DNA from: Cyathus striatus
Taxonomy: Eukaryota > Basidiomycota > Agaricomycetes > Agaricales > Nidulariaceae
Reading direction: 5' to 3'
DNA length: 64,000 nucleotides
NCBI GenBank assembly: GCA_025738555.1
Contig: JAOVFP010000011.1
Location: forward strand, 1,116,001-1,180,000
Below, one piece after another: positions 6,103 to 64,000 of the stretch (the stretch's first letter is position 1; the number at the start of each line of letters is the position of its first letter). Position numbers and translations under genes: made by a program. Below the pieces are notes generated by a model. It saw only the letters and a program-made list of their open reading frames with translations, did no database searches and was not told the DNA's origin.

Positions 6103-6950
6103 ATGCTCAGGCTCTCTGTGCTGCTCACATTAATACCCTGCCTAGCTTCTGCCACAATGTATGAGCTTGTCAAGAACATGGAACATTACTAGTTACCATG
6201 GCTTCACAGATGTTTGGGATTTTGCTGTAGAGCCTGATGAGAGTTTGTTCTTTGTGGTAAAATGATTGATTCACTATTGCTGAACACAGATTCCTTTGAC
6301 TTTTGATCAATCTGCAGAATACCAGATGTATGAGAATTCCATTATCAATGTAGCTTTAGTGCTGGTTCTGTTTAGCTTTATAGATTCAGCAACTGTGAGG
6401 AATGAGTTGTTGATGTTTTTTGACACCACTGGTCACACATTTATAAAAGTAGATAATACCACTAGCAGTCTATTCTCCCTTCTCAAATTGGTGTGCTGAT
6501 GAACTCACTGAAACTGGTGACAAAAGCTATGTTTCCCATTGGAATGTTTGGATTGTTGGTGTGTTTCATGCACCACATGAAGTAGGTTCTTCCTAGTAAA
6601 AAATGAGGTGAATACTGACACATATTCTATAGTGCACTGTACAGCCAATATTGTATGTTGCATAAAGACTCAGTTTTTGAAGGCATTGTAAATATTGACA
6701 TTTCAAGTTGGTCTATGGCTCCCACTCAAGTCAGTGGTAACTGGCCTAGTAGTGGGCAAGTATTTCCATACCTCTCACTGTACTTTTTTAATATTACCAC
6801 CACAGCAGTATCTTTACATTTGGAGGAGTAGATAAAGATACATCAAGCCAAATGAAGTTGTACATTGATAGTGTGGATAATTTTAATGGATCTAGCTTGG
6901 AATTGACCCCAGATCAAGTGTGAAAAGTGATATGGCAGCTTTTAATTTGA
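6103..6950 (+). pseudogene. GH16-like membrane protein pseudogene
   Basis: This is a worn copy of the gene family at 55-64 kb. It keeps a signal-peptide start (MLRLSVLLTLIPCLASATMY), a TGHTFIKVDNTT segment (about 6427-6465), a NSLKLVTKAMFPIG segment (about 6500-6545) and a SSQMKLY segment after the active-site intron (about 6843-6870). That intron keeps the donor GCAAGT at 6754, as in the intact minus-strand gene. Stops, frameshifts and loss of everything downstream of the middle of the domain show it is dead. Sequence just upstream (5980-6100) also resembles the upstream of the intact copies, so the duplication included flanking DNA. Confidence 0.85.
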
Positions 6951-26558: not shown

Positions 26559-28051
26559 GCATTAGTCAATCAGATGGTTAGAAAGTGAGATCCCAAATAT
26601 GATCCACAAATTACCTTATAGGAGAATCCAAACCACTCTATAACCCAACCACCTTAAAAGGTAGTTGAATTGAATAGTTGTTATCTACAATTATTGCAAT
26701 AACAGACATTGTCCTAAGGCGTGACAAACGTGCTAAAGCGTGACAAGTGTGAATGCATAGTGTGGGAGAATTGTGACAGACATGATGTGCATGAAAATTG
26801 TGACAAATGTGTGACGAACGTGATGCGCGGGAATATGCGTGACAGACGTGAAGGGCGGGAAGAATGTGACAAATGTGATGCGTGGGAATATGTGTGACGA
26901 ACGTGACGCGAAGGAAATATGTGACACGGATGTGACATGCAGGAAGTATGTGACAAATGCGAAGCACAGGAATATATGTGACGGATGTGACACACAGGAA
27001 ATATATGACAAATGCGAAGCGCGGGAATATGTGTGACGAGCGTGACGTGCGTGAAGTATGTGACAAATATGAAGCGCGGGAATATGTGTGACGAACGTGA
27101 CGCGCGTGAAGTACGTGACAGATGTGATGCGCAGGAAAAACACGAGGCGCGGGAATATATGTGACCAGCATGACGCGCGTGAAGTATGTGACAAATATGA
27201 TGTGCGGGAAAATATGAGGTGCGGGAATATGTGTGACCAACGTGACACGCGGGAAGTATGTGACAAATGCGAAGCGTGGGAAATATGCGAAGCGCAGATC
27301 AACTAGTAATCAGTAATAGCAATACATAAATGAGTGCCAATGATCACCTCCTAATATTCATTAAATGATCACTTTTGAGTGCCCTCATTCTATACTAATA
27401 CTATCCCCTAGTAATAAACCACAATACATAAATGAGTGCCAATGATCACCTCCTAATGCTCTCAAAAAGATCACTTTTGAGTGCCTCCATACTATACTAA
27501 TATAATTCCCTAGTAATCAACAACAATACATAAATGAGTGCCAATGATCACCTCCTAATATTCTTAAAATGATCACTTTGAGTGTCCCCATACTATACTA
27601 ATATAATCCCCTAGTAGTCAATACCAATACATAAATGAGTGCCAATGATCACCTTCTAATATTCTTCAAATGATCACTTTTGAGTGCCTCCATACTATAC
27701 TAATATAGTTCCCTAGTAATCAACAACAATACATAAATGAGTGCCAATGATCACCTTCTAATATTCTTAAAATGATCACTTTTGAGTGCCTCCATACTAT
27801 ACTAATATAGTTCTCTAGTAATCAACAACAATACATAAATGAGTGCCAATAATCACTTTTGAGTGTCCTCATACTATACTAATATAATCCCCTAGTTGTC
27901 AATACCAATACATAAATGAGTGCCAATGATCACCACTCCATTACATTTACTGAATATGCCTTATAAAAATGGCACTCATTTTTTTGGTGGAGAATCAGGA
28001 TCACTAGCACTCATTTTTCCTGAGCAATTTGCAATCAAATTGGCTGACACC
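26559..28051 (+). mobile_element. element F: two-array element with imperfect 8-bp duplication
   Basis: The left end is GCATTAGTCAATCAGATGG and the right end, reversed, GGTGTCAGCCAATTTGATTG. The flanks are ACTCAAAG (26551-26558) and ACTCATAG (28052-28059), 7 of 8 identical. Inside are a TGTGACA satellite (26710-27300, CpG-rich units such as GAACGTGACGCGCGTGAAGT) and a tandem repeat with period of about 101 bp (27310-27940). Its left 120 bp also occur reversed at 33115-33235. All open frames at 26638-27306 come from the satellite. Confidence 0.65.
27310..27940 (+). repeat. tandem repeat, about 101 bp x 6
   Basis: The unit begins near AATACATAAATGAGTGCC and contains AATGATCACCTCCTAAT and CCATACTATACTAATAT. 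Copies start near 27330, 27428, 27528, 27629, 27730, 27831 and 27908; the last but one is shortened. Units are contiguous and have no spacers. Confidence 0.9.
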
Positions 28052-55220: not shown

Positions 55221-57103
55221 TCATCTACGTAATAGGTGGGCAGTGATGTCACCCCTGCCAATCTCCCTAACTTCCTCTGCTAACCGCCTTCTCAGAATAT
55301 TATTCTCCTCCAGTAATTCCGCCACTTCTGCGTGTGCAGCAGCAGCACCAACTGAAGGCGGCCTGTTTCCCTCTGCTGCACCCAACTCCACAGTGTTGAA
55401 GGCCACAGCTCTCTCTCTAATAGGCGATTTCGATCGCAGTAGTGCATGCATAGGAGTATGCACCATATCGACATTACTTTGCTGCATACCGTAAAATGGC
55501 ACAGGAACTGGCAACTCCCCTTCCAATTTCCAAGTAGTTTTCTTCCAGCGCTTGTAGACTAACAAAACTGCTGCTACAGCTGTAACAAAGCCGCATATAC
55601 TGCCTATAGCAATCACTATTGTCACACCTTTGGATTTTCTGGAATTTGATTGTTTTCCTGAGCCACTATTTGTAGTAGCAGCAGCACTACTGGTCAGACT
55701 GGTACTTGAGGATTCAGTAGGAGTACCATTGTTAGCCGCAGAGGTGCTGTTAGCCCCAGCAGTCTCATGTGACTGGAACACTTGGATTGATCCTATCTCA
55801 AAATATGCCTCTGCAAGACCAGAACCATTTCCGACGACAGCATTCGAGATATCTTGATCTGCAGAGCAAGTTTGGTTGGGAAGCTGGATACTCACAACTA
55901 CACAGAAGTGAGTACTACCAAGACCAGTATTACTATACACTCACAGTCACAAAGCATAATTTCAATAATAAGAGACTGGGGCAAAAAGACTTGACTGAAG
56001 CCTTGAGATCCGCAAATAGATGCTGGCCAATTTGCTACCGGAATGCCAATGTCTGTCGTATTAATACTCTCAGGGTTCAAAATGGAACTTGGAACGTTGT
56101 TGCGAGGAAAGAACCATATGCTACACTTGCGGGTCAGTGATATACATGGTAATATTTACGTGGAGTGATCTTACGAAACTCCAGTGGAAGCAAGTTCGGT
56201 AATATATACACCACCTCCTCCGTTATTAAATTCCGGACCATGCGAAGGAAAACCAGCATTCGTAATGATACACCCTTGAAAGGCATCACTGCAATCCGTC
56301 GTATTAACAATTGATGCTTGATTCTGGTTAAGGTTTGAGCTGGGTGCTTTACACTTTTCTCCGGTGTACAGCCTCATTTGGCTTGATGCATCTATATTTA
56401 GTGCTTCAAACGTATTGATGCCACTGTAATGAAAACATGAAAAAAATGCAACGCGATGAACAGGAATACTTGCCCGCCTTTATTCCACCCACCACCGGCT
56501 TGCGTCGGAGCTATCGACCGACTTTTAATATCAATGTAAATATAGGATTTCATAACTGAGTCTTTGAACAACGTACAATACTGGCTGTACCCCGCACTGG
56601 AGCATAAGTATATGATGTTAGTAATTGTGTTGCACATGTCCAGATAAACTGACTCCGTAAGGTACATGGAAGATGTCAATAATCCAAACACTTCCCATTG
56701 GATAGGCGGCTTTTGTCATAATTTTGACGGAGTTCCTCTTATAGGTTGTATCTGGAATATTAGTGGTATTATCTACTTTTATAAATAAGTGGCCAGTGAC
56801 GTCGTCAACAGTCATTAACGACTGATCTATCGCAGATTGTTGATTCACATAACTACGAAGAATCAGCGCAAGCTAAACGAGAAATGACATTCACATACGA
56901 CTGGTATCCTCCATCTGAAGCATCACCTAAAAGAGTCAAATTTCAGCATTAGTGAATCAACGGTTTTAGCTGGAAAAAATACTTTCTCCGATGATATCCC
57001 ATTCATAAAAGAAATCATTACCGGATGTGCTCTGCACAGCCGCATATATTGCGGCAGATACCAGGCCTGGTAGTAATGCAATGAATGCAGGGAGCCAGAT
57101 CAT
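55221..57103 (-). CDS. GH16-like, receptor-like membrane protein without catalytic nucleophile (gene 1)
   Basis: Exons on the minus strand: 57103-56983, 56926-56899, 56852-56654, 56596-56577, 56521-56474, 56423-56175, 56120-55945, 55897-55221. All phases agree and give 505 aa. Residues 1-18 are a signal peptide (start MIWLPAFIALLPGLVSA). The GH16 (laminarinase-type, concanavalin-A-like) fold follows: IKVDNTT, NSVKIMTKAAYPMGS, FHVPYGCGVQPVF (family CGTWPAFW), GPEFNNGGGGVYITE, FFPRNNVP, GIPVANWPASIC and AYFEIGSIQVFQ. The active-site motif is GGINTFE (residues 139-145) where the family has GEIDIIE, so the nucleophile Glu is Gly and the Asp is Asn. Then come a Ser/Thr stalk (about 324-370), one membrane helix (about 372-394), and a 111-residue tail with a coiled coil (about 471-492). 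Intron 5 uses a GC donor (GCAAGT). Role inferred: glucan binding or sensing at the cell surface. Confidence 0.9.
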
Positions 57104-57311
57104 TTCGATAGGATAACGACTATCGCTGGTAAAAGAATCGTGGATTATATATGAAGGGTCAAGCTTTCTGGACTTCTGTTGTTTATGTTGTTCTTTGATT
57201 CATATTGAATTCAACAAGATGAGGATAATTCATCAATCTGTTGCCATTATGATTTTTGATCATCATATTTTCACCGGATTACCACTGACAATAACCATTA
57301 TGGTTGAGCAC
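57104..57311. promoter_or_regulatory. upstream region of gene 1
   Basis: This is the 5' flank of gene 1, in ordinary CpG context. A TATATAT motif lies about 45 bp upstream of the start codon (57146-57152). No other motif could be assigned. Confidence 0.4.
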
Positions 57312-57319
57312 AGCTGGTA

Positions 57320-58116
57320 GTACTAATGTTGCCTCCGCTCAGCTCAGCTCCCGCTCGGCTCAGCGCCGCTTACTGTCCCTGTAGGATAAAGAGCTCAGCT
57401 CTCCTCGGCTCAGTGAGCTGAGCTACTCGAGCAGCTTCTCGGGCACTTATATTACAATAGTTAAGTAGGCATATAGACAGTTCTCATCCTTATGTTAGTC
57501 CCTTAGCTTAACACCCTGAGTCCCCAGAATATATATCAACATATTTCAAGTGCGATTTGGTACATATTTAAACTGGAATTAAGTGTTTATTCATCCAGAA
57601 GAGACTAAATAAAAATGTCTATATCCTCAGCTACTGCAAACTCATTCGCATTTTCCATCTCCAATTCAAGCATCTGCTCCTGTTTACCTAGTCCCTCTGT
57701 AAAGTTAAGTGCATACCCAGATCGTATATGGAATTTGAGCATTTGTCATGGCTCCTTGAGCTCGGGTAAAATTTGATTGTGTCTCAGTGTCATCGTCTCT
57801 TTCCCTGATGAGAAAACACATTCGCATGGAACCAAAAAACTCTGTATTGGAAGAAAATCTAATGCTGGCGAAAACACTGTTGGGGTACCGCAGTTGGTTC
57901 TCTGGTAAGTGTAAACTTCATCTCATTTTAATTTCAGACATCATGTAACTATGTTCCCGCAAATGCCCAGGAGCGGTTACCTCAAGCTCGCTCGGAACTG
58001 TCAGCTCAGCTCAGGATTCAGAACTAGTCAGCAGGAGCCATGAGCGAACTCAGCTCAGTGAGCTGACAGCTCCGCTTAGCGGTTCAGCGGCTCCGAGCTG
58101 AGCCAGCGGCAACACT
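57320..58116 (-). mobile_element. hAT transposon relic with 8-bp target duplication
   Basis: AGCTGGTA stands on both sides (57312-57319 and 58117-58124). Near the ends are ATGTTGCC and GGCAACAC with mirrored AGCTCAGCTCC words (57340-57430, 57990-58105). The minus strand encodes the C-terminal dimerisation region of hAT transposases (about 57905-57615): FSPALDFLPIQSFLVPCECV, FSSGKETMTLRHNQ and LKEPWQMLKFHIR. The rest of the transposase is missing, so it could move only with help. It lies between the divergent genes 1 and 2 and has high CpG, which suggests a fairly young insertion. Confidence 0.85.
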
Positions 58117-58124
58117 AGCTGGTA

Positions 58125-59440
58125 CCCAATGTCACTATAAGTAATACATTAATATAAGTAGTTTTAAATAAAAGTAGGTAAGTCATCGTCAACATGTTAG
58201 TGTTTATAACCCCATTACAGTTGAAGCATTGATCGAATGGGAGAGGTAATGTATAATTGGCATTGTTGATGTTGATGTTACCAATCGCAAAGACAGCAGG
58301 GTTTATGATCTTGAGAAGGTTCGGAACACGTAGATGGCTATGGGTTCAGATTAAGCACTTACACTGCTGTTTTTATCAGTCAGCTAATAAATCAGTGACG
58401 GAGAACGAATATATCAACAATGAACGCGTAACGCAGGGATAAGCACCATCAATGCTGGACTTCCAAGTATCTTTGCGATATTTGCGCAAAAATCGTGGTG
58501 CTGCAGATTCTCGACCGTATAACGTCAAAATTTCTGTATAATGTCAGGAAAGTTAGACTTCTACAGATTATCAGACATGCTATCTTCGCATGACGTACCA
58601 GGTGCTACCAGAACCTCTCACTGCTTGCGCCATCTCTTCTGTCGCCATCAATACGGGCATAACCATAACTTCCATTGTGAGGTCAGAAGCTTACAATGTC
58701 GAATCTGTATCTGTGTAAAATTAAACTGTATGAAGAAGTCATGTCATCTGACATGAACCAACGTGAAAGAACAAAAATCTTGTCTATAATTAAATAATCC
58801 TGTGTCCCTTATGATGGATAACATCAACGCTCACAGCCGCTGCAACATGCTTGGCAATCACGTTCCTAAATACAGACGACAGGAAAGAACTCCTCTACCG
58901 CTTTCATGGAACCCAGATAGAGTCTGAGAGCGTCCTGAACCAGAGCTCAGTGGTGAACAATTCCACTCTCACTTGCTACGCATCGTTCTGGCTAATCAGC
59001 AGGTATAGAAGTAGCTGACATAAATAAGAAATTGTATGCGATTTGCCGAAAGTCCATTCCACTATGGTTATTATAAGGTATTGTAAAGGGTGGTTAGTGA
59101 TATAGAATGTGAATACTAATAAGAGTGTAACAAGCACTGATATGGTGGCAGGCGGAATTGAATTTCTTCCCACGATCCGTTTAATTGTTAGCGAGTCATG
59201 TTTTCTGACGAGCAGTATACTAAGTAATGTACATCCTTCAGAACGGATGACGAAAGCTAATGTCTTAATGTTTTGGTTCAAGTCCATCTGATATATCGGA
59301 AGTCCTTCCTACCTGGGATTCTGAGTGAGTACACTTATTGCTTCCGCCGATACGTCAATCTGTAGTTATAATTGACACAAATAATTCAATGATACAGATA
59401 CATCACACATTTGCTGTAATTACTGCAAGTTATATATAAA
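58125..59440. other. intergenic region between genes 1 and 2
   Basis: CpG is normal here. The minus-strand frame 58976-59287 (103 aa, two hydrophobic stretches) and the plus-strand frame 58541-58756 (Cys/His-rich) have no family I recognise. Either may be chance. Confidence 0.35.
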
Positions 59441-59446
59441 AATCGA

Positions 59447-61510
59447 GATATTGCCTGTGTTGAGTTCACAAATAGAAAGAATATGATCAAAATATGATTC
59501 TACAAAAAAAAAAAAGTTCATAGTTACTGGAAGTGATCTAAGGATTGCAACCAGCATCATCGAAGATACATCCACACAGGACTTAATGAGTAGCGAGTTG
59601 TTGATCAACAAAGAAGAATCACCACCGTGCTATAGTTTAATCATTTACCTCAGAGCTTGTAATGCGAATCTGCGATGTTGCGATGCCATTCTCTTCACAT
59701 ATATACCAGGATACTCACTAACAATAGTTCGTATGCTGTCGACATGATCTGGCTCTCCGCATTCACAATACTATCACCAGGCTTGGTTTCCGCCACAATG
59801 TATGGGCTCGTGCAGAATAGCACCAGTATTAACTTCTTCGATGATTGGTATTTTGTCAACGAAAGTATTGTCTTTCGCCTAAATTGATTCGTCACTACTA
59901 AAAGCTGATTCTATTTAGCTGACACTACAGATCTAGGATACCAGTCGTACGACTCAGGTCCTAATTTTTATTTATGTTATACTGATTCCTCGTAGCTATG
60001 TGAATGAACAATCCGCGACAGCCCAAGCGTTAATATCTACTGATAACGATACTGGTCACACGTTTATAAAAGTAGATAACACCACTTATATTGCTCCGCG
60101 AAGTGGCGGTTGGAGAAATTCTGTCAAAGTTATGACAAAAGCTGCTTTTCCCATTGGAAGCGTTTGGATTATTGATCTATTCCATGTACCATACGGAGTA
60201 AGTTTTTCCTAGCATACGTGACACACCCTAAAACTTTTGTAATCCAGTGCAATGTACAGCCAGCATTGTTCGTCGTTCAAAGATTCAGCTCTGGAAGTTT
60301 ATATTTACATTTACATTTAAAGTCGGTCGGTAGCTCCAACGCAGGTCGGTAATAGTTGGCCTAAAGGCGGGTGGGTATTTCTATTAGTCTCACCGCATTT
60401 TTTAATACTTTCATTACAGAGGTATCAATACGTTTGAAGCACTAAACAAAGATGCATCAAGTGTAATGAGGTTGTACACTGGAGAAACGTGTAATGCGTC
60501 TAGCTCGAACCCTAACCAAAATCAAGCGTCGATTGTTGACACGACAGATTGCAGTGATGTCTTTAGAGGGTGTACCACTACGAATGCTGGTTTTCCTTCT
60601 CATGGTCCGGAATTCAATGACGAGGGAGGCGGTGTCTACATTACCGAACTTGCTTCCACCGGAGTTTCGTACGATTAATTTGTGTTGATACTACCACATA
60701 TATCATTAACACGTATTTTTAGTATATGGTTCTTTCCCCGCAATAATGTCCCGCTCTCCATTTTAAACTCCAACACTATTAACACGACAGATTTTGGCAC
60801 TCCAGTAGCAAATTGGCCAGCGTCTATTTGTGGACCTCAAAGCTTCAGCCAAGTCTTTTTGTCTCAGTCACTAATTATTGAAGTTATGCTTTGTGGTTGT
60901 GAGTGTATAGTAATCCTATTCGCAATTGTGCTTACTTATGATTAGACCTGAGTAAGTCAACCTCATCATACTGGCAAACATGCGATCAGGATAGCTTCTG
61001 TTCCGTTTATGGAGATGGTTCCGATTTTTCGGATGCATATTTTGAAATAGGATCAGTCTTAGCGTTCCAGTCAATCGACACTACTAGCAGCGCTTCAACT
61101 AACATTGGTACTCCTACCGGCTCCCCAGGCAGTACAAATAACCAAGGAGAGAGATCAGATGCTAACATGCACAAAGGCACGACAATAGGAGCTGTGATAG
61201 GTGTCGTATGCGGCTTCCTTATTATTGTCGTGGCAGCATTTTTAGTTTATAAGAGGCGAAAAAACCCTTCAAATTCTGAAGGGGACCCACCAATCTCTGT
61301 GCCATTTTTCACTACTGGGCTCGGTAATATTGATACGGTTCATAAGCCCATGTATGATCCGCCACAACCGAAATTGCCTGTTGGGGATAGAACTGCAGCA
61401 GAATTGAACACTGCAGAGTTGGTTAAGCAAAGGGAAAGAGGATACCTTCAATCTATGGTGCATAATCCCATGCATGTGCCACCACAGCCAAAAATACATA
61501 TTCGGGATTG
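59447..61510 (+). repeat. tandem duplication unit, first copy
   Basis: The stretch from TTCACAAATAGAAAGAAT (about 59465) through gene 2 is repeated from GTGCACAAATAGAAAGAAT (about 62247) through gene 3. Upstream DNA was therefore duplicated along with the gene, with a spacing of about 2.8 kb. The sequence AAATAGAAAGAATxTGATC, 260 and 640 bp upstream of the two genes, is the best conserved non-coding part. Confidence 0.7.
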
Positions 61511-61511
61511 A
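59744..61511 (+). CDS. GH16-like, receptor-like membrane protein without catalytic nucleophile (gene 2)
   Basis: Exons: 59744-59864, 59919-59946, 59996-60197, 60248-60267, 60323-60370, 60420-60668, 60723-60898, 60946-61511; 469 aa. Seven of eight exon lengths equal those of gene 1 or differ by three. The signal peptide starts MIWLSAFTILSPGLVSA. The fold segments are FIKVDNTT, NSVKVMTKAAFPIGS, CNVQPAF, GPEFNDEGGGVYITE, FFPRNNVP and AYFEIGSVLAFQ. The active-site motif is GGINTFE (residues 140-146) in place of GEIDIIE; the final Glu remains. The membrane helix is at about 360-383 (IGAVIGVVCGFLIIVVAAFL). The tail repeats an H-x-PM-x-x-PPQPK motif twice and ends at a TGA; similarity to the gene 1 tail continues in frame past it (EGNRP). 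Intron 5 has a GT donor (GTGGGT). Role inferred as for gene 1. Confidence 0.9.
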
Positions 61512-62908
61512 GTTTTGGACATGAATATAGCAGAGTTGGATGTGACAGAGGGAAATAGGCCAATGACGTTCGAGGTGTTAGAAATACGACTGGTGTCATA
61601 GCAACTTGGCTAGCAGTGTACTACACATATGTACATATTGATATACACGATGCAGCAGTTCCCTTAATATACGTTCGTTTTCATGACTTTAAATGTTCAC
61701 ATTAACTAAAATTACACTTTAAGGGTCTATTCGTGTGCAAGGAGAAGCCCTCCAGTGAGTTGCGATTATATACCGTCGCAAATAATATATCACACATTTG
61801 CAGTTATTGTCTACTGTAAGTTATGTATCGAAACTAAAGGTTCATAAGTTTTATATTTTCTCAATAATCCAACTTTTACTGAGTATAAAATGTGCTTATA
61901 TTATAATTGACCTGTACCAGCTCTTTTCTACTACAAAAGCATTTGCTTTCTACCATTAAATATATAGTTACATAGTGTACATCACATAACAGATAATGTA
62001 TAGAGATATATGTATACTCATGCATAATATAGATAACTCTATGAAAACTTGACCATAAAATATGTAGTCTATAGTGCTCTATCCAACAGCACAGCATGCT
62101 ACACGGTGGTATGTGGTTCATATAGAGTTGTATGGCCTAGCAGGTGATCGGCATAGGCTACCGAGCTTGGTACTTGGCTCTGTAACCGGATCAGTGTTTC
62201 GGAGTCGGACCTGTTTCCTGATGTATATAGCTGAGCCTGTGTCGAGTGCACAAATAGAAAGAATTTGATCCCACGAATAAAGTTAAGGTTCTTGGAATAG
62301 TAACTGGAAATGATGTAGCACCTCAGACAAGCCTAAATCGGGTCAGTATAAATATGGTACTCCTTGATTTCCTTAATAATTAGAATATGCTGTAAAGTAT
62401 ATAAGGTGTCAGATTGTTCCAATTGTTTCGTACCGAATTTACATGTGCGACATGAACCGAGCCTCCGAAAATTTTCCGATTGGCCTAGAAGGCCTAGAAC
62501 GGATGAGATTATGGATCTTATTGTAAATATCTTGCATGGATCAGACGGTTATCCTATTGTTGTGCATGTTCAAAATTTGCTCAAAAATCGGACATTTAAT
62601 ATATTTAAATAACTATTCTAATTGTTACATACATCGGATTGTACCATATTAAACGATCCGATTCACCCTTGTCTGAGGTGTAGCCTGTAGGGAGTGGAAC
62701 CGGCGGTGTAATCACTGATATTCACACAGGATGTACACATGAACAGCGTGCTGTTCATCATTATCGGAAGACGATCAGCAACTATCACCCTTCTATGTTT
62801 TTATAGTTTGCAACATATTTCGTAATGGGATGTTGCAATGCCGGTCGTCATTCATTCATTATTCAAATATAATCCACATGCTAATAGTATAGTCATCACC
62901 CTGTTGAC
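61512..62908. other. intergenic region between genes 2 and 3
   Basis: The first 90 bp continue the tail coding sequence of gene 2 in frame after its stop (61512-61601). From about 61730 the sequence resembles the region upstream of gene 2 (CACACATTTGCAG, AAGTTATGTAT). The small frames 62074-62268 and 62364-62612 are not recognised. Confidence 0.5.
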
Positions 62909-64000
62909 ATGCTCTGGCTCCCTGTATCTTTTACCCTACTCTCGGTCCTGGTGTCCGCGGCAATATATGAGCTCGTTCAAGATAGTAGAAATACCGGCGA
63001 GAGTTTCTCCGATGCATGGGAGTTCGTTACTACAAGTATTTCTTTCTAATAAAACGATTGATGAGTCGTCATTGCTGAATACAGACTCTTTTAGCTGATG
63101 GTAAAGATCAAGGAGAACAGTCGTACGAGAATCCCTTTTTCGTTTAGCTTTCATTGATTCCTTATAGCTACGTGAATGCACAAGATGCTTCGTCCAGATC
63201 ATTAATGTATACCGATATGGCGATTGGTAGCACATTTATAAGGGTGGATAATATCAGTGCCATTTCTTCAGATGATGTCGGCGGGAGGGGCTCGGTCAAA
63301 CTTATGACAAAAGCTACTTATCCAATGGGAAGTCTTTGGATTATTGATCTCTTCCATGTACCATACGGAGTAAGTTTAACCTTTGTCCTGAAATACGCAA
63401 AACATTTACTGATATCTTATGCTTATTCTCCAGTGTGGCGTACAGCCAGTATTGTACGTTGTTCTAAGACTTAGTTTTGGAAAGCCATATATATATTTGA
63501 CATTTCAAGTCGTTCTTTGGCTCTGAATGATAATTGGCCTAATGGCGGGAAAGTATTTCTGTTCACTCCGTTGTATTTGTTTTTTTAATGTTTTCATTAC
63601 AGCGGTATCAGTATATTTGAGGCAATGAACAAAGAAGCATCAAGCCAAATGAGCTTGTACACAGGAGAAAAGTGCAATGCGTTTAGTTCGAACCCTAATC
63701 AAAACCAGGCATCGATTGTTAACACGACGGATTGCAGCGATCCAATACAAGGTTGTATCACTACCAATGCTGGCTTTCCTTCGTATGGCCTGGAATTCAA
63801 TAACGGACAGGGTGGTGTGTACATTACCGAATTTACTTCCACTGGAGTTTCGTAAGATTAATTTGTGTAAATATTACCGTATATATCACTAATTCTAGTA
63901 TTTGTAGTATATGGTTTTATCCCCGCAAAGATATCCCTAGTTCCATTGTAAATGCCCAGAGTATTAACACGACGGATTTTGGCACCCCGGTAGCAAATTG
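62909..64000 (+). CDS. GH16-like, receptor-like membrane protein without catalytic nucleophile (gene 3, partial)
   Basis: Exons: 62909-63035, 63095-63122, 63168-63369, 63434-63453, 63510-63548, 63603-63851, 63908 to beyond the window end. The signal peptide starts MLWLPVSFTLLSVLVSA. The fold segments are FIRVDNI, GSVKLMTKATYPMGS, FHVPYGCGVQPVF, WPNGG and then GGVYITE. The active-site motif is GGISIFE (residues 139-145), again without the nucleophile. Intron 5 would need a GA donor (GAAAGT) at the place where gene 1 has GC and gene 2 GT. Using the nearby GTATTT instead shifts the frame into a TGA six codons into the next exon. The gene is therefore either spliced unusually or newly inactivated. 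Stalk, membrane helix and tail lie outside the window. Confidence 0.8.

Follow-up and report, generated by a model that had tools for sequence, protein, structure and literature searches.

Results

Three GH16-like genes without the catalytic nucleophile

The stretch analysed here (the window) comprises 64,000 nucleotides of the Cyathus striatus genome, C11:1116001-1180000 of a 107.45 Mb assembly in 24 contigs. Within its positions 55221-64000 lie three genes, copies A, B and C, whose products resemble glycoside hydrolase family 16 (GH16) and share one plan: the N-terminus is hydrophobic and leads into a GH16 ectodomain, which a Ser/Thr-rich linker connects to a single membrane helix with basic residues after it and then to a tail. 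An original prediction, made from the DNA alone, had recognised three paralogues that keep the GH16 fold signature, signal peptide and cysteines, had noted the loss of the catalytic nucleophile in each, and had proposed a receptor role. The structural part of that description holds: all three copies carry an ectodomain of the fungal laminarinase type represented by Lam16A, which copy B matches by sequence at E = 5.5e-30. Signal peptides are present as judged by eye from hydrophobicity, the basis also used for the glycosylphosphatidylinositol (GPI)-type ends discussed below. The helix and tail had been seen in two copies; they are in fact present in all three, those of copy C lying beyond the window.

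Copy A (minus strand, 55221-57103; 505 amino acids) was spliced by hand into eight exons (57103-56983, 56926-56899, 56852-56654, 56596-56577, 56521-56474, 56423-56175, 56120-55945 and 55897-55221), all of which were reproduced by spliced alignment. Its fifth intron (56424-56473) has a GC donor (cgg/GCAAGT...ACAG). Its membrane helix, with basic residues next to it, lies at approximately 55554-55628 as read from the sequence, and the homologous helix was modelled at residues 353-384 of the C. striatus protein P0004 (P numbers denote database proteins, L numbers genomic loci). Copy B (plus strand, 59744-61511; 469 amino acids), also spliced by hand, has eight exons (59744-59864, 59919-59946, 59996-60197, 60248-60267, 60323-60370, 60420-60668, 60723-60898 and 60946-61511), a helix at about 61176-61253, with limits again read from the sequence, and an early stop that shortens the tail. 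Copy C (plus strand) starts at 62909 and continues past the window end at 64000; six exons were spliced by hand (62909-63035, 63095-63122, 63168-63369, 63434-63453, 63510-63548 or to 63560, and 63603-63851), and a seventh, from 63908 and cut at 64000, came from spliced alignment. At the donor position used by the other copies its intron 5 (63549-63602) reads GA (cgg/GAAAGT). Beyond the window, in locus L028 on C11, copy C is complete, with helix, coil and a PPPTYY end. Our purpose-written spliced protein-to-genome aligner agreed with the hand splicing fully for A and, within the window, for C except at the end of exon 5. The exon phases, originally described as intact, do keep frame in the eight-exon models, but the GC donor of A, the doubtful GA donor of C and the damaged tail ends of A and B qualify that statement.

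Loss of the active site

The catalytic strand reads GGGINTFEALN in A and B and GGGISIFEAMN in C. The G-I-N-T-F-E and G-I-S-I-F-E readings of the original prediction are thereby confirmed, and the loss extends further than it had noted: of the E-x-D-x-x-E site, both the nucleophile Glu and the Asp (now Asn or Ser) are gone from every window copy, and the third acidic residue, Glu, is retained. The codon in place of the nucleophile is GGC in A (56420-56422) and GGT in B (60421-60423) and C (63604-63606), in each case nucleotides 2-4 of exon 6. Because this codon sits inside exon 6, beyond the reach of the exon 5 donor, no alternative exon 5 end restores Glu, and rescue of the enzyme by a different exon 5-6 junction is ruled out. 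A GT found four bases downstream of the exon 5 end in all three copies would put exon 6 out of frame, and an in-frame GT 12 bases on in copy C still gives no Glu.

We then sorted alignment rows by this residue, 80 with Glu against 37 without, and compared columns that are near-invariant in the Glu-keeping rows. The Asp of the motif is present in 80/80 rows with Glu and in 0/37 without; this joint loss is not chance. At the third acidic position the Glu-less rows have Glu in 29, Asp in 5 and Gln or Lys in 3. The eight ectodomain cysteines are kept in 35/35 Glu-keeping and 36/37 Glu-less rows, and scaffold residues are kept too. The G-x-W-P Trp of the cleft is found in 79/79 Glu-keeping but 5/35 Glu-less rows, where Gln stands in 24; a second Trp drops from 80/80 to 21/37, Arg replacing it in 15; and the L-H-T His, present in 79/79 rows with Glu, persists in 10/37 without it, Tyr being found in 24. 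The proteins thus have the beta-jelly-roll of the Lam16A type by fold and homology and lack the enzyme's E-x-D-x-x-E site. Since the cleft Trp, the second Trp and the His are mostly lost, plain beta-glucan binding, the activity first proposed, is not supported for the expanded clade, which includes A, B and C. Three Glu-less members, L041, L042 and P0004, retain the cleft Trp and His, so catalysis was probably gone before the sugar cleft.

A single Glu-less clade in Cyathus

Genome-wide, we counted 48 GH16-like loci, fragments included (two match lists merged by eye), 16 of them on C11. Models were obtained for 41, and one of the others shares L053. Glu is kept at five modelled loci (L018, L040, L048, L053 and L054, the last with a stop in its model) and replaced by Gly, Ala, Ser, Ile, Val or Thr at 31; another five (L021, L022, L023, L025 and L032) were too damaged to score. 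Glu and Asp are both gone in all 31 readable Glu-less copies, in line with the non-enzymatic role first suggested. Damage among these 31 includes stops (L010, L015), frameshifts (L031, L049) and missing 5' parts (L016, L017), and the expansion with pseudogenes that had been proposed is therefore borne out, one decayed copy with several frameshifts (L025) lying in the window itself at 6428-6867 (plus strand; C11:1122428-1122867).

Database searches gave 82 relatives, after exclusion of P0045 (no GH16 domain) and P0084 (a short, weak match). At the active site 75 read E/D/E, six, all from C. striatus, lack Glu, and P0065 is gapped. Glu-keeping C. striatus proteins exist as well (P0005, P0052 and P0073). 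The nearest named relatives of the window copies are C. striatus proteins, and ectodomain tree distances between loci and database proteins can be small (changes per column: L040-P0005, 0.004; L053-P0052, 0.024; L042-P0004, 0.048). The C. striatus AH 40144 assembly is given as 91.2 Mb (PMC11186289). The spread across Agaricomycetes envisaged at the outset was not seen: the Glu-less tailed form was found in Cyathus only, in protein searches that reach relatives sharing short words with the query (in one, the best 7993 candidates), and a search with the P0002 tail matched Cyathus proteins only.

In a tree of 55 ectodomains, built with the catalytic columns removed, all 37 Glu-less rows fall on one side of a single branch (support 100/98), which Glu-keeping Cyathus proteins adjoin; the deepest forks within the clade lack resolution. 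The helix with a long cytoplasmic tail is confined to the Glu-less side, which suggests that catalysis was lost and the helix and tail were gained on the same branch or on nearby ones.

Some features of the surroundings were also recorded. L016 (C7:1154622) and L017 (C7:2697794), both without first exons, are near-identical and far apart on one contig, and they adjoin near-identical upstream sequence, as if a mobile element had moved both together. L024 (C11:1095547) and L031 (C11:1309737) are recent duplicates (dS 0.03) about 214 kb apart, one of them frameshifted. Repeats of the GCTCAGCTC type, lying in both orientations, were seen by eye between copies A and B at 57330-57440 and 57960-58110, and at 26638-27309 (minus strand) the window holds a low-complexity repeat stretch open in three frames simultaneously.

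Helix and tail as a shared module

P0001, P0002 and P0004 have the helix and cytoplasmic tails of 118, 110 and 126 residues, respectively. In 33 of 45 Glu-keeping proteins from the first search, the most hydrophobic stretch lies no more than five residues from the C-terminal end, and none of the 45 combines a strong helix with a long tail; at the Glu-keeping loci L018, L040 and L054 a hydrophobic C-terminal end is likewise seen. Full-length Glu-less copies carry the tail after the helix and so do not have the GPI-type pattern of a hydrophobic end without a tail. The tail consists of a conserved PFFSTRQGNINVVHNPMH block, a coiled coil and a PPxY end, usually ending in PPPTYY after the coiled coil. 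Of the 31 Glu-less models, 25 have PPxY, and the structure model of P0004 places a coil helix at residues 461-484. PPxY motifs can link proteins to Rsp5-type ubiquitin ligases; the genome contains HECT-domain matches.

A composed 147-residue helix-plus-tail query gave 77 matches, merging into 62 loci, 34 with GH16-like exons upstream and 28 without. The latter figure is an upper bound for separate genes, as some are fragments; the L033 tail, for example, could be part of L032, a broken gene 5 kb off. We inspected the ectodomain at 12 of the 28, without splicing the genes in full. An NGTWHD-type beta domain lies upstream of the tail at five (L037, L038, L039, L060 and the upstream gene in L034). 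At three (L055, L056 and L059) a domain shares its last exon with the helix and tail; we label it cupredoxin-like after a sequence motif, and Pfam and PDB searches with the L059 piece gave this label no backing. At the remaining four (L029, L033, L057 and L058) the ectodomain could not be told. The C. striatus gene model P0045 adds yet another ectodomain type, distinct from NGTWHD; its alignment-free structure model was of unusable quality (mean predicted local distance difference test score, pLDDT, of 36).

In the tail tree the P0045 tail nests in a clade of GH16-like tails (95/89), NGTWHD tails sit in an unresolved fork among GH16-like ones, and the cupredoxin-like tails form their own clade. 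The nesting points to at least one exchange of the tail between ectodomain types, in either direction. In the first 1.2 kb of L034 an NGTWHD-type tail gene stands directly upstream of a GH16-like tail gene, and in L049, L050 and P0045 a single open frame holds the helix-plus-tail segment twice in tandem, so that the tail includes another hydrophobic stretch.

A constrained scaffold with a hypervariable N-terminal part

Ratios of nonsynonymous to synonymous change (dN/dS) were estimated pairwise (NG86) for pairs with dS under 1.2, those with dS of 0.03 or less being excluded from the ectodomain median. Glu-less copies gave medians of 0.36 for ectodomains (275 pairs) and 0.38 for tails (246 pairs); the only Glu-keeping pair in reach, L040/L053, gave 0.09, at a high dS of 1.41. 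We also summed changes by segment over eight close pairs (seven for the N-terminal part, the roughly 75 residues after the signal peptide). The N-terminal part reached 0.73, four core segments 0.15, 0.31, 0.29 and 0.23, the last ectodomain segment 0.54, the linker 0.66, the helix 0.34 and the tail 0.33. Purifying selection acts on most of the ectodomain core. Neutral decay, named beforehand as an outcome that would undo the prediction, is thus rejected as a full account. Homogenisation of the tails by gene conversion was not supported, tail dS being lower than ectodomain dS in only 90 of 210 pairs.

The ratio of N-terminal to core divergence rises from 1.15 in Glu-keeping proteins (1421 pairs) to 1.75 in Glu-less ones (476 pairs), and among the latter the mean identity of the N-terminal part stays flat at 0.38-0.41 while core identity spans 0.55 to 0.80. 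Fisher p values for the N-terminal comparison (1.9e-6; 1.3e-5 on the three youngest pairs) serve as guides only, as the pairs share history, and the evidence for positive selection is suggestive only. In excerpts of a GH16 survey, variability within subfamilies sits in the cleft loops and not at the termini (PMC6827312), which makes a fast N-terminal part in the Glu-less copies unusual.

Purifying selection also bears on the unusual splice site. At the exon 5/6 junction the 31 Glu-less copies have GC donors in 17, GT in 12 and GA in two (L019 and copy C), the GA calls resting on a position set in modelling and other readings also being in frame; the in-frame donors of A, B and C are GC, GT and GA, respectively. 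All five Glu-keeping copies have GT here, and other short introns of the same models have GT in 199 cases and GC in three, at least one an alignment artefact. The C. striatus gene model P0001 seems to read through intron 5. Because purifying selection persists downstream of the junction, with five of the eight pairs being GC copies, the data suggest that the GC donor is used.

Discussion

Comparison with known GH16 proteins

The Lam16A-type fungal laminarinases (PDB 2cl2/2wlq; PtLic16A, 3wdt) share a homologous fold with the proteins described here. Compared with these enzymes, however, the Glu-less copies lack the nucleophile Glu and the Asp, have mostly lost the cleft Trp and His, and continue into one membrane helix plus cytoplasmic tail where those enzymes have a secreted or GPI-type end. 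We take the Lam16A-type proteins in this set to be subfamily GH16_1. Superposition on GH16 structures, proposed earlier as a check, was made with the relative P0004 and not with a window copy; the nearest solved relatives are of Lam16A type, and comparison with GH16_4 is limited, since according to excerpts of the GH16 survey no structure of that subfamily existed (PMC6827312). By the same survey, catalytic residues have been lost in about 9% of GH16_4 proteins, among them fungal members, and in 1% of other GH16 proteins (PMC6827312). At 1e-3 neither A nor B matched a Pfam family, a null that is uninformative on GH16, as the Glu-keeping P0010 also had no match and PF26113, listed for relatives, was absent from the scanned library.

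Dead GH16 domains are known elsewhere. To our knowledge, neither the arthropod recognition proteins betaGRP/GNBP nor the bacterial protein Rv0315 has a comparable helix and tail, and Rv0315 represents a separate loss. By its PDB title Rv0315, a Mycobacterium pseudo-beta-1,3-glucanase (4wzf), has a dead GH16 fold. The betaGRP/GNBP proteins are likewise GH16 homologues without catalytic residues that are used in recognition, and they gained an N-terminal region or carbohydrate recognition domain, as described in excerpts of PMC6403176. An extra N-terminal glucan-binding domain was not found here: the P0004 ectodomain aligns with GH16 from residue 32, right after the hydrophobic helix. Among the literature matches listed, none described, by title or abstract, a membrane-anchored, catalytically dead fungal GH16 family. 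A dead GH16 as recognition protein would thus follow a known principle, and its membrane-anchored fungal form with a shared tail was absent from the matches listed.

A proposed receptor-like family derived from a beta-glucanase

The combination of signal peptide, ectodomain, single helix and tail, as judged from sequence, hydrophobicity by eye and the P0004 model, together with the variable N-terminal part and the sharing of the tail, agrees with the receptor-like design originally envisaged. Loss of Glu and Asp in one clade, the helix and tail, the constrained scaffold, the hypervariable N-terminal part and the shared tail can all be read from the sequences themselves, and the family looks more like sensors than enzymes, with a putative ligand and putative signalling. 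On balance, and with confidence only slightly above even, we favour a lineage-specific set of receptor-like surface proteins, seen in Cyathus only, that derives from a secreted GPI-type beta-glucanase. Early in the Glu-less clade, a Lam16A-type ectodomain would have lost the nucleophile together with the nearby Asp, and the hydrophobic end would have given way to a single helix and cytoplasmic tail (the PFFSTRQGNINVVHNPMH block, coiled coil and PPxY). The disulfide-held jelly roll would then be retained as a rigid scaffold, with the fast-changing N-terminal part setting binding specificity and the Ser/Thr-rich linker forming a stalk through the wall. Inside the cell the coiled coil may let tails pair, and PPxY may recruit a WW-domain ubiquitin ligase of the Rsp5 type for uptake or signal shut-off; engagement of the N-terminal part would be relayed to, or limited by, the common tail.

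Several observations weigh against this account. PPxY is missing from both A and B: the final part of the A tail is in another frame than its relatives' tails, and B stops early; without the tail end, these two may be defective or decoy-like members. In copy C the GT 12 bases past the usual exon 5 end is also in frame, adding four residues, and its splicing is doubtful. More generally, splicing of intron 5 would need a GC donor in 17 of the 31 Glu-less copies. When A and B were scanned against Pfam, the tail matched no domain. The deepest Glu-less pair, L036 and P0053, shows no helix, L036 having only a tail fragment downstream, so that the catalytic loss may have come either before or after the gain of helix and tail. 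Finally, a strict count on the three youngest pairs gave an N-terminal dN/dS of 1.74 that was not significant (one-sided p = 0.054), with other pairs ranging from 0.26 to 1.10; given this and the ratio of 0.73, relaxed constraint on the N-terminal part is possible.

The best of the alternatives, though in our judgement an unlikely one, is that these are cell-wall integrity or adhesion proteins in which a dead GH16 domain grips the fungus's own wall glucan, a stalk transmits mechanical stress and copies drift. The Wsc/Mid2 wall sensors are single-pass proteins with a Ser/Thr-rich stalk and a short cytoplasmic tail that binds a Rho guanine nucleotide exchange factor. The Cyathus copies share the single helix, stalk and short tail with them, but differ in the ectodomain, and neither A nor B matches a WSC or Mid2 family; with copy B, even at E up to 10, only sub-threshold helix matches to other families appeared. 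A weak Mid2 match (PF04478, E = 0.0028, below the cut-off) does occur in a protein that shares the tail but has another ectodomain. Retention of the cleft Trp and His in L041, L042 and P0004, and a nucleophile-disabled Lam16A mutant that by the title of PDB 2wlq holds laminariheptaose, are compatible with glucan gripping; the expanded clade, however, has lost these cleft residues, and dozens of copies with a hypervariable N-terminal part suit a repertoire better than one sensor.

A mostly functionless expansion, in which a damaged GH16 gene was multiplied in a repeat-rich region and most copies are becoming pseudogenes, strikes us as improbable. The fragments and decayed copies (L022, L023, L025, L032), the stops, frameshifts and missing 5' parts listed above, the damaged tails of A and B and the GC or GA donors are all as it would expect. 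Yet dN/dS remains at 0.15-0.31 in most core segments and 0.33 in the tail, even between close copies, and the cysteines and, in 25 of 31 tails, PPxY are kept. We give still less weight to a decoy function, in which dead glucanases held at the membrane would shield wall glucan, sequester it or bind glucanase inhibitors from rivals or predators, and the tail would act only in turnover through PPxY; a dead GH16 fold with its scaffold kept and a possible uptake motif would fit, but the same tail behind other ectodomains is left unexplained. That the proteins are still enzymes, through the remaining acidic residue (Glu in 29 of 37 rows, Asp in 5) or another mechanism such as transglycosylation without the usual nucleophile, is barely conceivable, as Glu and Asp are lost in 37/37, three rows have Gln or Lys at the third position, and the cleft His and Trp are mostly gone.

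Returning to the receptor-like family, we tentatively suggest, with a good deal more doubt, that it is part of a wider modular surface recognition system in Cyathus, in which one helix/coiled-coil/PPxY tail (62 loci) would serve several ectodomains: the dead GH16 with its hypervariable part, the NGTWHD type, the P0045 type and the cupredoxin-like type. Animal and plant receptor families likewise reuse one signalling end. Fungi do not seem to have extracellular leucine-rich repeat (LRR) receptors, as stated in an excerpt of a review of fungal innate immunity (PMC9119436). The Glu-less proteins offer an example, confined to one clade, of an enzyme that became a membrane protein, for which the enzyme-type relatives in the same genome serve as controls. 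A dead-enzyme family with a shared tail is a testable candidate for the surface proteins with which fungi sense their neighbours; if the modular interpretation is true, these proteins would be fungal surface receptors of a non-LRR class, directed at kin, rivals or bacteria.

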